Shown piece by piece: positions 45,642-50,776 of a stretch of DNA of 64,000 bases. Below the pieces are notes generated by a model. The model was not told the origin of the DNA, made no database searches, and saw only the letters and a program-made list of their open reading frames with translations. A program made the translations under genes and the position numbers. Location: contig JAMCQN010000151.1 of the NCBI GenBank assembly GCA_023382055.1, positions 62,001 through 126,000 of the forward strand, given 5' to 3'. Source of the stretch: Chloroflexota bacterium. GTDB taxonomy: Bacteria > Chloroflexota > Anaerolineae > J036 > Brachytrichaceae. How positions within the stretch are numbered: the first letter of the stretch is position 1; each line of letters begins with the position of its first letter.

Positions 45642-46416
45642 GCGCCCGGCGCTGGCGAGCCGCTTCGAACAGAATCACGCCGCAGGCAACCGCGGCATTC
45701 AATGACTCGACCTGGTTAGCCAGTGGGATCGATATGGTTCCGCTGGCTAAACGGTGCGCATCCGCGCTGATACCCGTTGCCTCGCCGCCGATGATGACTG
45801 CATTGGGGTCGCGCCATGGCACGCTGTCGTAAGAGCAGCTTCCGACAGCTTCCGCCGCCCAGACCGATCGACCCTGACACACGTCGTGGATCGCGTCCCA
45901 GTCCATATTGCTGACGATCAGACGAGCATGAGCGCCCATCCCCCCGCGCAACACTTTGGGGTTATACGGATCGACGCTGCCCGGGCTGAGGATGACCAGC
46001 CTGCCATCCGCGCCGGCGGCGACGCGCAGGCAGGCGCCCAGATTACCGGGGTCGCGGATGGCGTCGAGAATCAGGATCTGTCCGGGCAACGAGGATCGGA
46101 TCTGTTCAGGACTGGTTGCCGGGATACTAAAAACCGCCAGTACGCCGGGGGGATGTGTCTCTACAGATACGGCTCGCATGACCGCTTCATCCACGAGTAG
46201 CGTGTCAAGCATCGCGTGATCAGCCTGCCATTGTTGACCTGCGGTATCGCCTGTTGCGAAGGCGAATTGCGCGATCAGTCCGGCGCGGATGAAGTCGTCA
46301 ACAAGGCGGGCGCCCTCGGCAACAAAGAGCCCTTCGCGCTCGCGCGAATCGCGCTGATGCTGCAACTGGCGCGCCAGTTTCACGCGCTTGTTCTGTGTCG
46401 ATGTCAACATACGCAA
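45628..46416 (-). CDS. SpoU/TrmH-family RNA 2'-O-methyltransferase
   Basis: [73 protein letters not shown]. Confidence 0.93.
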
Positions 46417-46417
46417 A

Positions 46418-46441
46418 ATAGCCCACCAGGCGGTGGGCTAT
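46418..46441 (-). terminator. Terminator-like hairpin downstream of rplT
   Basis: Minus strand ATAGCCCACC-GCCT-GGTGGGCTAT followed by TTT; 10-bp perfect stem. Confidence 0.75.
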
Positions 46442-46506
46442 GCGAAACTCTCTAATGATGTATGCCGCCCCAACCTGCTTGCCAGGGCATTCACAGGTAA
46501 AGAAGC

Positions 46507-46854
46507 CTAAGCCTGCGCAGTCTGCACAACCGCGCTGAAAGCGGCGGCATCGCGCACCGCCAGATCGGCCAGGATCTTGCGATCCAACCGGATATTGGCG
46601 TGCTTCATATTGCTGGTCAGCTTGCTGTAGGTCGTGCCATTGAGCCGCGCTGCGGCGTTAATGCGCACAATCCACAGCCGGCGGAAATCGCGGCGGCGGT
46701 TGCGGCGATCCCTGTAGGCATACCACAACGCGTGCAGTCGCGCTTCGCTTGCGCGACGGATTGAGTGATTTCGCGCGCCATACTGACCCTTGGTAATTGC
46801 CAGGATACGATTGTGGCGACGGCGACCCTTTACCCCACCCTTTACTCTTGCCAT
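46507..46854 (-). CDS. rplT: 50S ribosomal protein L20
   Basis: [73 protein letters not shown]. Confidence 0.98.
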
Positions 46855-46866
46855 GTTCCTTTCCTC

Positions 46867-47076
46867 TTACTTCTGATAAAGATAGGGCGCCAGTTTCTTG
46901 ACGCGATCAATCAGACCCTTTGATGTTACCTCATGCATTTCAGGCAGTTCCGCCTTGATGCGCTTGCTCTTCTTTCGGCGCAGGTGGCTCTTGCCGAGTC
47001 GCGTGCGCATCAGCTTGCCGCTGCCAGTCAAGCGAAAGCGTTTTGATGTTGACTTGTGAGTTTTAATCTTTGGCAT
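46867..47076 (-). CDS. rpmI: 50S ribosomal protein L35
   Basis: MPKIKTHKSTSKRFRLTGSGKLMRTRLGKSHLRRKKSKR; start trimmed to MPKIKTHK. Confidence 0.97.
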   Translation of the reverse strand: MPKIKTHKSTSKRFRLTGSGKLMRTRLGKSHLRRKKSKRIKAELPEMHEVTSKGLIDRVKKLAPYLYQK

Positions 47077-47175
47077 TCCATCCCTCGAATACTCATACTG
47101 AGGGGCAGGCGGCAAACCGGAACCGGCTTGCCCCTGCCCCTGGTAAAGCGACTAAGTAAGTTTTAGCTTGTTGAG

Positions 47176-47949
47176 CTAAGGCAGATTGAACTGCTCCTGA
47201 CTGCGTTCCCTGGCGCGCTTGACGCGATTTATCGCTTTACGCGCGCTTTTGTCCTTCGGTACACCGTTACTGTCAGCATCCTCGACGGCATCGAGGACCT
47301 CGATTTCATCCTCATCATCTTCGTCGTCGTCATCCTCAATATAGCCCTGAGCCTTGTCAACCTCAAGCTCTTCCTGGATGCGGACCTGTGTTGATTTCAG
47401 CGTCGATGCCGCCACTGTCGCTGCCGTAGGCGCCAGAACCATCAGCATGGTTTTCCCTTCCATCTGCGGCGCGAACTCGATTATCGCAAGATCAGCGCAC
47501 TCCGAACTCACCTTGTCCATCATGCGCCGGGCGACATGCGGAATCTGGTCTTCACGCCCCTTGAACCTCAGGCTGACTTTCACCTTATTTCCCTGCTGAA
47601 GGAAACGCCGCGCGCTGCGGATCTTGAAAGACAGATGATGATCGGTGGTTTTAGGGCGTAAGCGCACCCCTTTGATTTCGGTAACTTTAAGGTTCTTTTT
47701 CGCCTCGCGTTCTTTTTTCTCGCGCTCGTAGATAAACTTGCCGTAGTCGAAAATCCGGCACACGGGCGGTTCAGCATTGGGCGCAACCTCAATCAGATCG
47801 AGGTGCTGCACACGCGCCTGATGCAGTGCATCGCGCGTATCTACGAGACCCTTATTGCTTCCGTCAGCAGCAATCAATCGCACTTGCGGAACACGGATCT
47901 GCTCATTGATGCGAAATTGCGGCGCATATTGAGTTCTGAATGGCGGTAT
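47176..47949 (-). CDS. infC: Translation initiation factor IF-3, apparent ATA start codon
   Basis: Upstream in-frame reading gives IPPFRTQYAPQFRINEQIRVPQVRLIAADGSNKGLV with the conserved RINEQIRVPQVRLI; AGGAGG at 47958-47963 sits 8 nt upstream of ATA (47947-47949). Track start (GTG 47883) would drop the conserved N-terminus. Confidence 0.8.
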   Translation of the reverse strand: MPPFRTQYAPQFRINEQIRVPQVRLIAADGSNKGLVDTRDALHQARVQHLDLIEVAPNAEPPVCRIFDYGKFIYEREKKEREAKKNLKVTEIKGVRLRPKTTDHHLSFKIRSARRFLQQGNKVKVSLRFKGREDQIPHVARRMMDKVSSECADLAIIEFAPQMEGKTMLMVLAPTAATVAASTLKSTQVRIQEELEVDKAQGYIEDDDDEDDEDEIEVLDAVEDADSNGVPKDKSARKAINRVKRARERSQEQFNLP

Positions 47950-48010
47950 ACTCGAATCCTCCTCTGCCTGAAAGCAGAAACTAAGTTAATCCTGATATTT
48001 TCGTGATGGA

Positions 48011-48039
48011 ATTATACCGAATGCCGGCATAGCCGTCAA
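48011..48039 (-). promoter_or_regulatory. Promoter TTGACG-N17-TATAAT for infC-rpmI-rplT
   Basis: Minus strand: TTGACG (48034-48039), 17-bp spacer, TATAAT (48011-48016). Confidence 0.82.
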
Positions 48040-48052
48040 ACCGAACTCGCCT

Positions 48053-48058
48053 TATAAT
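48053..48058 (+). promoter_or_regulatory. -10 element TATAAT upstream of alaS
   Basis: TATAAT ending 9 nt before the alaS ATG. Confidence 0.5.
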
Positions 48059-48067
48059 TTCGGTCTT

Positions 48068-50776
48068 ATGCTGAGCAATCAAATACGCAGTGCTTTCATT
48101 GACTACTTCGCGCGTAACGGCCACCAGGTCGAGCCGTCATCGTCGCTGATCCCTTATGGTGATAAGACCATTCTTTTCACCAATGCAGGCATGAACCAGT
48201 TCAAGAACCTGTTTCTCGGCCTGGAGAAACGCAATTATACCCGCGCGGTTACCGCACAAAAGGTGATGCGCGTCAGCGGCAAGCACAACGACCTTGAAAA
48301 CGTCGGCCCAAGCCCGCGGCATCACACCTTCTTCGAGATGCTGGGGAACTTCTCATTTGGTGATTATTTCAAAGCCGACGCCATGAGTTATGCTCTGGAA
48401 CTGGTAACCAAGGTCTATGGCCTCGATATGGACCGCCTGTGGTTTACGATTTATCGCGAGGATGACGAGGCGGAAACCCTCTGGAAGAAGCTCGGCGTCA
48501 ACAGCAGTCGCATCTTGCGCTTTGGCGAGAAGGATAATTTCTGGCAGATGGGCGACACCGGGCCCTGCGGCCCGAACTCGGAGATCCATTACTTTACCGG
48601 GGACAGAAAAGAGGACAATACAGCCGACCATGTGAATTCCGACAACGACGAGACGACACTCGAGTTCTGGAACCTTGTTTTCATGCAATATGACCGCGAT
48701 CCCAGCGGGAAACTCACGCCATTGCCGCGGCCAAGCATCGACACGGGCATGGGATTCGAGCGCATTTGCCGCCTGGTACAGGGTGTGCCCACTAACTACG
48801 AAACGGACTTATTCGCGCCAGTCTTCGAACGCATCCAGAACCTGGCAGGACACACAGACGAACAGCGCCAGAACGATTATGTGGCTTACCGCGTAGTCGC
48901 AGATCATGTGCGCGCAGCCTCATTCCTGATCGGTGATGGCGTCTTGCCCGGCAATGAGGGGCGCAATTATGTATTGCGTATGATTCTACGGCGCGCTGCG
49001 CGCTTCGGACGGAAGATCGGTTTCAACGACCCGTTTCTATACCAGGTGTCCGACGCCGTCATCCAAAAGATGGGCGAACACTATCGCGAGCTGGTTGAAC
49101 GCCGCAAACACATTCTCAGCACCATTCACCAGGAAGAAGAGCGCTTTGCGCGAACGCTTGATATCGGTCTGCAGCGTCTCGATGACATCATCGATGGTCT
49201 GGACAAGACCGTACAACCCGCGGTAATTCCCGGTGACGTAGCCTTCAAGCTGTACGATACCTATGGGCTGCCTGTAGAGATCACCCGGGACGAGGCTAAG
49301 GAGCGCGGCGCAGGTGTCGACGAGGCTGGATTCCTGGCGGCGCGTGAAGCAGCGCGCGAGCGAAACCGTGGCGGCGACCAGTTCAGCGCGGATTATGACT
49401 TGCGTCGCGCCTACAGCGAGGCCCTGGAGACGCTCAAGTCCAGCGGCGTCCTGTCTGACAACGGCGTTGCATACGATCCATATGGACCGCTGACCGTAGA
49501 TACCGAAGTTGCAGCTTTATTGCGCGAAGGCGAGATGACGGAACATGCGGTCGCAGGAGAACACATCGAGATCGTTCTACCCCGTACGCCGTTTTATGTT
49601 GAAGGGGGCGGCCAGGTCAGCGACACGGGTGTCATCACGGCGCGCGCGATCAATGGCGAGGCACCGGCCTGGAGCGTTACCGTGACCGATATGCGCCGTC
49701 CTGCGCCGGGTTTCATTGTGCACGTGTGCGAGGTGACTTACGGGCAGCCGCGCATCGGCGATTCCTGCGTTGCCCAAGTCGATGAAACCCGCCGTCTGGA
49801 CATCATGCGCAATCATACGGCCACACACCTGTTGCAGAAGTCTTTGCGAGCAGTCGTTGGAGACCATGTAGGTCAACAAGGTTCACTTGTTGCGCCTGAC
49901 CGTTTACGCTTTGATTACTCCCACAGCGCGCCGCTGACGATAGAGCAGCTCGATCAGGTCAGCAACATGCTCAATGACGCCATCCTGGTCAACTACCCGG
50001 TTACGGCGTCACAGGAAGCTTATAAAGACGTCGTGAAAGCGGGCGCTATGGCCTTCTTCAGCGAGAAGTACGGGGATATCGTCAGGGTATTGCGGATTGG
50101 CGAACCCGGCCACAAACCGTTCAGTATGGAGCTGTGTGGCGGTACGCACGTCAAACAGACTGGCGACATCGGAAGCGCGTTGATTGTCAGCGAGACCGCG
50201 GTGGCTGCCGGCGTGCGGCGCATCGAGGTACTGACGGGTCATGGCGCACTGAGATACGCGAAGCGCCTGTCCCAGCAACTGGCATCCGTCGCGCAGGCAT
50301 TGAATACCAACCCGGACCAGGTCACCGAGCAGACCGCCAAAGTGCTGACCGTGCTGTCTGATACGCAAAAAACGCTTGAAAAAGCGCAGAAAGAACTCGC
50401 CCGCGCGAAATTCAACGAGATGCTGGCGGAGATGCACTCGGTGAAGAACAACCCGGTGCTGGTGGCGCAGACGCAGGTTGAGAGCATGGATGTATTGCGC
50501 GAGATGACCGACTGGTTCCGCGACAAGCACCCCAGCGGCGTGGTCGTTTTAGGCGCGGTGATCGGGGAGAAACCGGCGATTGTCGTCGCCGTATCGAAGG
50601 ATCTGAACAGCAAAGGCCTGGACGCCGGCAAACTGGCGCGTGAGATCGCGAAGCTGGTCGACGGCAGTGGCGGCGGTCGTCCTACCCTGGCACAGGCCGG
50701 CGGAAAAGACGCGACCAAACTGAGCGCAGCCCTTGCCCAGGCCACCCGACTCATCGAAAGCTGGTTGAGCGCATAG
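48068..50776 (+). CDS. alaS: Alanyl-tRNA synthetase
   Basis: FIDYFARNGHQVEPSSSLIPYGDKTILFTNAGMNQFKNLFLG; HTATHLLQKSLR; MELCGGTHVKQTGDIG. Confidence 0.98.
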   Translation: MLSNQIRSAFIDYFARNGHQVEPSSSLIPYGDKTILFTNAGMNQFKNLFLGLEKRNYTRAVTAQKVMRVSGKHNDLENVGPSPRHHTFFEMLGNFSFGDYFKADAMSYALELVTKVYGLDMDRLWFTIYREDDEAETLWKKLGVNSSRILRFGEKDNFWQMGDTGPCGPNSEIHYFTGDRKEDNTADHVNSDNDETTLEFWNLVFMQYDRDPSGKLTPLPRPSIDTGMGFERICRLVQGVPTNYETDLFAPVFERIQNLAGHTDEQRQNDYVAYRVVADHVRAASFLIGDGVLPGNEGRNYVLRMILRRAARFGRKIGFNDPFLYQVSDAVIQKMGEHYRELVERRKHILSTIHQEEERFARTLDIGLQRLDDIIDGLDKTVQPAVIPGDVAFKLYDTYGLPVEITRDEAKERGAGVDEAGFLAAREAARERNRGGDQFSADYDLRRAYSEALETLKSSGVLSDNGVAYDPYGPLTVDTEVAALLREGEMTEHAVAGEHIEIVLPRTPFYVEGGGQVSDTGVITARAINGEAPAWSVTVTDMRRPAPGFIVHVCEVTYGQPRIGDSCVAQVDETRRLDIMRNHTATHLLQKSLRAVVGDHVGQQGSLVAPDRLRFDYSHSAPLTIEQLDQVSNMLNDAILVNYPVTASQEAYKDVVKAGAMAFFSEKYGDIVRVLRIGEPGHKPFSMELCGGTHVKQTGDIGSALIVSETAVAAGVRRIEVLTGHGALRYAKRLSQQLASVAQALNTNPDQVTEQTAKVLTVLSDTQKTLEKAQKELARAKFNEMLAEMHSVKNNPVLVAQTQVESMDVLREMTDWFRDKHPSGVVVLGAVIGEKPAIVVAVSKDLNSKGLDAGKLAREIAKLVDGSGGGRPTLAQAGGKDATKLSAALAQATRLIESWLSA

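Follow-up and report, generated by a model that had tools for sequence, protein, structure and literature searches.

The gene infC, coding for translation initiation factor IF3, raises in this Chloroflexota genome (Anaerolineae, family Brachytrichaceae; assembly GCA_023382055.1) the question of which codon starts its translation, the GTG picked by ORF calling being situated within the conserved amino-terminal domain of the protein. The gene was analysed in a stretch of 64,000 nucleotides of contig JAMCQN010000151.1, hereafter the window, whose numbering is used in Table 1. The source genome is 82.7% complete; its draft assembly comprises 207 contigs and contains a single infC.

An in-frame stop codon (TAA 47988-47986, minus strand) is found upstream of infC, after which the frame reads LSFCFQAEEDSS-I(ATA)-PPFRTQYAPQFRINEQIRVPQVRLI. 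No ATG, GTG, TTG, CTG, ATT or ATC is present in this frame between the stop and the ATA, which is the only near-cognate codon in the tail preceding the FRINEQIR motif of IF3. The earlier note had proposed initiation at this AUA on the grounds that conserved IF3 residues lie upstream of the GTG, that no ATG, GTG or TTG separates the stop codon from that GTG and that a perfect AGGAGG stands 8 nt before the ATA. Re-reading of the frame bears out the three observations, the amino-terminal domain residues QFRINEQIRVPQVRLI being placed upstream of and across the GTG.

Table 1. Features of the infC locus (window coordinates).
Feature	Position	Strand	Remarks
Promoter-like TTGACG-17-TATAAT of infC	48011..48039	-	11/12 consensus matches; consensus match only
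Stem-loop TCTGC(TTTCAG)GCAGA abutting the Shine-Dalgarno	47963..47978	-	stem search with shuffles, covariation; final base doubles as the first A of AGGAGG
Shine-Dalgarno AGGAGG of infC	47958..47963	-	8-nt spacer to ATA; anti-Shine-Dalgarno in own 16S rRNA
Predicted AUA start codon of infC	47947..47949	-	sole in-frame near-cognate codon; ATA/ATC in 25/25 intact family infC
infC coding sequence, 257 aa from AUA	47176..47949	-	stop at 47178-47176
IF3 amino-terminal domain, PF05198	47701..47910	-	E 2.5e-30, profile 1-70/70
GTG picked by ORF calling, rejected as infC start	47881..47883	-	GTT/GTC in three other infC-bearing genus members
IF3 carboxyl-terminal domain, PF00707	47428..47682	-	E 4e-29
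Family-specific carboxyl-terminal extension of IF3	47179..47427	-	helix, acidic linker, basic helix, ends EQFNLP
rpmI (L35), from ATG, downstream in infC operon	46867..47076	-	
rplT (L20), downstream in infC operon	46507..46854	-	

The Shine-Dalgarno (SD) of infC has a pairing partner because the 16S rRNA of the source genome ends in GGATCACCTCCTTTT, a matching anti-SD. Pairing amounts to -11.9 kcal/mol for the ATA and to a weak -2.5 kcal/mol for the most favourable NTG around the start of the gene. Background rates for the start, SD and stem searches were taken from 285 kb of the source genome. Among its 212 long ORFs only three have an ATH start whose SD pairing is at least 4 kcal/mol better than that of every NTG, and the two that are not infC have weak SDs (-8.4 versus -11.9 kcal/mol for infC). 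Judged by this background of 212 ORFs, the ATH start with superior SD at infC is beyond chance.

The ORF caller chose the GTG as the first NTG of the infC frame. Its use would lead to a shortened IF3 deprived of the conserved RINEQIRVPQ of the amino-terminal domain, it would have to do with the weak pairing given above, and its counterpart is GTT in one and GTC in two of the other infC-bearing members of the genus, three in all. Initiation at this codon, which is not conserved in the genus, was rejected and has a negligible probability.

The nearest named records by infC similarity are Chloroflexota metagenome-assembled genomes of the Anaerolineae, including Candidatus Roseilinea and Thermoflexales bins. 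The family was sampled with 28 genomes; infC is present in 26 and intact at its start in 25. One copy (L074, genome G019) has an apparent frameshift near FRINNQ, where it reads FESTNQ, and a shortened carboxyl terminus, probably due to an assembly error. The alignment of infC leaders from relatives, which the earlier note had called for, gives ATA or ATC, preceded by a strong SD, as the best-placed start in all 25 intact genes and ATG in none. In genera g1 and g8 the gene reads SD-(7 or 8 nt)-ATA-CCN-CCN. The spacer between SD and ATA has 7 nt in G004 versus 8 nt in G000, G002 and G003, genomes of the same genus, and the infC frame downstream of ATA is intact in all four; the frame is therefore broken upstream of the ATA, yet kept downstream. 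Third codon positions are the most variable both in codons 2-11, the tail before FRIN (0.36 versus 0.24 and 0.17), and in codons 2-31 (0.45 versus 0.14 and 0.08). The spacer indel and the third-position variation from codon 2 onwards indicate that coding begins at, or right after, the ATA. The translated IF3 alignment opens with an invariant residue at the ATA/ATC codon. In genus g7 (L063-L073) an out-of-frame ATGA is found 1-2 nt past the SD (GGAGGAATGAGAGTATC), before the ATC start of infC; the overlap may be fortuitous, or the ATGA may act as a very small competing start.

The same relatives bear on an indel hiding an ATG, which had been named beforehand as the finding that would overturn initiation at AUA. 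A sequencing or assembly error could conceal a normal start, such as an ATG that lies out of frame near 47928; the source genome is a draft in 207 contigs, and G019 provides a case of apparent frameshift in infC. However, independent assemblies of six other genomes from g1 and g8 show SD-ATA-CCN-CCN with an open frame, and in other genera a strong SD is followed at a comparable distance by ATC or ATA. Because six genomes of two genera keep this arrangement, the hidden indel is excluded in practice and the concealed ATG was rejected. With a near-cognate codon, its SD and the downstream frame conserved and the frame broken just upstream, the comparative evidence strongly supports AUA as the predicted start of infC in the source genome.

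The distribution of such starts beyond the family was surveyed in 111 distinct infC loci, mostly from Anaerolineae, plus Armatimonadota and a few other phyla. The procedure, devised for this analysis, weighted ATG, GTG, TTG, CTG, ATT, ATC and ATA alike and took the codon with the best SD pairing; individual loci may be misassigned. The best start was ATC in 49 loci, ATA in 46, ATT in 10, GTG in 2, TTG in 2, ATG in 1 and none in 1, so that AUH (AUA, AUC or AUU) prevails in 105/111 loci and NTG in 5. The single ATG call (L054) is tied by an ATA in the customary position. The same procedure applied to 105 rplT loci called ATG 73 times, TTG 6, GTG 5 (84 NTG), AUH 6 and none 15. For rpmI, AUH was called in 19 of 108 loci, but this control is noisy because the search window reached codons within the conserved amino terminus, and rplT was taken as the clean control. 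Some Anaerolineales rplT genes (L106, L135) were called at an ATT one codon ahead of the conserved amino terminus, probably an artefact of the procedure. AUA, AUC and AUU are, by these calls, the norm for infC throughout the class. The framing of the AUA start as a special case does not stand: AUH is the norm of the class, and AUA already has experimental backing in Staphylococcus aureus infC, where it is enriched in Ribo-RET and the authors suggest autoregulation (PMC13009471).

The encoded IF3 carries both canonical domains, PF05198 and PF00707, and matches PDB IF3 chains end to end. Its AUH codon stands behind an SD with no usable AUG, GUG or UUG ahead of the conserved amino terminus, and the near-cognate start is conserved within the family (25/25 intact genes) and overall (105/111 loci). 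Sequence and comparison together establish the predicted start codon and the SD of infC, the retention of AUH throughout the class and an intact two-domain IF3. The carboxyl-terminal domain of IF3 is the part that contacts the P site region of the 30S subunit. It is followed by 82-109 residues in intact family copies versus a median of 16 outside the family, and the long tail is absent in most other Anaerolineae. In the family the tail comprises two helices, the second of them basic, separated by an acidic linker, and closes with the conserved NRxKRA..EQFxLP. AlphaFold2 predicts tail helices at residues 185-201 and 234-252 joined by a disordered linker (mean pLDDT 76.5, low in the tail).

IF3 is described as destabilising initiation complexes on codons other than AUG, GUG and UUG, and the AUU of Escherichia coli infC as giving negative feedback that is abolished by its change to AUG (PMC5472188). 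There is a high probability that infC of the source organism is translated from AUA with a strong SD as compensation, and that IF3 exerts negative feedback as it does through AUU in E. coli. The complete AGGAGG would pair with the anti-SD of 16S rRNA, offsetting the poor AUA codon. IF3 would repress its own mRNA when abundant because it would destabilise 30S complexes on start codons other than AUG, GUG and UUG, the AUA of this mRNA included; a rise in IF3 level would lead to repression of infC mRNA and a fall would release it. We infer that IF3 discriminates against AUA in the source organism, giving this feedback, and autoregulation through start-codon discrimination can soundly be extrapolated from E. 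coli.

The AUA could instead, together with the strong SD, simply fix a low expression of IF3 in a clade where IF3 feedback does not operate, much as the S. aureus genes ccpN and cvfC1, which are not infC, use AUU/AUA as translation limiters (PMC13009471). However, the near-cognate start of infC is kept class-wide while the codon drifts among AUA, AUC and AUU, the pattern expected if discrimination by IF3 is selected, and the feedback is demonstrated in E. coli. A mere limiter of expression is quite improbable, and the near-cognate infC start very probably serves negative feedback by IF3.

The gene alaS begins divergently at 48068 and the infC leader, counted from the promoter-like site, is predicted to have ~55 nt; a -10-like TATAAT is present in most infC leaders of the family, and no terminator-like site was found in the infC leader. 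A stem-loop enters the SD with the end of its 3' arm (Table 1). Its arms vary in the family (TCTAC/GTAGA, with CC/GG inside, TCCGC/GCGGA, CCCGC/GCGGG and others). The stem search was repeated in full on per-sequence shuffles, with P values between about 0.00 and 0.08 in six genera; it was not significant in g5, whose stem has two G-U pairs, and it found no SD-abutting stem in g2. When the seven different arm pairs are compared, pairing holds in 94% of cells versus 76% in shuffles and four of the five pairs change on both sides versus 1.8 in shuffles. The arms entered here were those of the best stem, selected manually, a choice biased towards pairing; the per-sequence shuffles are for this reason the fairer test.

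A stem of comparable strength occurs in 20/26 family loci versus 2/80 loci outside the family, and, within the 285 kb of the source genome, at 2 of the 23 GGAGG-led genes other than infC. With one mismatch allowed, the exact motif has a single occurrence in the entire genome, that at infC. Two other AGGAGG-led genes of the source genome (L159 and L175) have strong stems just upstream, GTGGCA/TGCCAT and GCGGC/GCCGC. A longer pairing, of UUC with GAA flanking the hairpin, is visible in g7 and g8 and not regularly in g1; it is unproven. A kink-turn at the base of the hairpin was considered and dropped, the bulge and the tandem GA being incompatible with that motif.

Could this hairpin, through folding or through a protein such as L20 of the same operon, be the chief control of infC and the AUA start be of secondary importance? 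The hairpin covaries in seven of eight genera and is specific to the family, and the B. subtilis infC leader is under L20 control (PMC10931766). On the other hand, an Rfam scan of positions 46000-49000 gave no match up to E = 5, the L20 leader included, and predicted SD accessibility with native upstream sequence is not consistently above or below that with shuffled upstream sequence, for which reason the hairpin is not asserted to open or close the SD. The AUH start is also far wider in distribution than the hairpin, and genus g2 lacks the hairpin yet keeps ATC. Control mainly through the hairpin is unlikely, and the stem-loop most likely exerts a modest effect on initiation. A second layer of infC control through the hairpin or the IF3 tail is possible. 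A more elaborate version, in which the covarying stem-loop tunes AUA/AUC initiation and is perhaps read by the IF3 tail or L20, providing dual feedback through codon and hairpin binding, is doubtful.

These data extend the near-cognate infC start to Anaerolineae and apparently to Armatimonadota, with AUA among the two commonest codons. The distribution supports the view that feedback on IF3 through the start codon is of ancient origin and has been retained very widely despite codon drift. A practical consequence is that NTG-limited ORF callers truncate or mis-start infC in such genomes. The hairpin at the SD and the long IF3 tail of this family look undescribed; they are parts that specialists might not expect and testable additions to the textbook feedback loop. 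No description of a near-cognate infC start in Chloroflexota was found in the literature searched, many subscription papers being beyond reach.

An AUA start of infC is in itself no novelty, near-cognate infC starts being already known elsewhere. An AUU start was reported in E. coli and B. subtilis (PMC1805508) and an ATT start was confirmed in Listeria (PMC13068326). S. aureus infC shares with the gene described here an AUA codon with a strong SD, but belongs to an unrelated phylum. In Streptomyces, infC starts at ATC with IF3 feedback, likewise described for the E. coli ATT, and sigR, also under IF3 control, starts at GTC (PMC5472188); non-AUG starts discriminated by IF3 are the common feature proposed here, while the codons and the phylum differ. 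The long IF3 tail is reminiscent of Dsg, the IF3 of Myxococcus xanthus, whose carboxyl-terminal extension of 66 residues beyond the two canonical domains is needed for development and not for translation (PMC2129111). The Roseilinea-family tail has 82-109 residues in intact copies, an acidic linker and a conserved NRxKRA...EQFxLP end. The L20-responsive leader of Bacillus likewise places a structured RNA ahead of infC, in an operon of the order infC-rpmI-rplT, whereas the leader found here is short (~55 nt, predicted), has a hairpin of 5-6 bp and lacks an Rfam match and a terminator-like site. The closest counterpart is E. coli infC, with a near-cognate AUH codon, a strong SD, a two-domain IF3 and the infC-rpmI-rplT gene order. 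In the genome studied here the codon is AUA instead of AUU, the gene has its own putative promoter directly upstream with alaS diverging, a hairpin is present at the SD and IF3 has a carboxyl-terminal extension; the feedback demonstrated in E. coli is inferred here.
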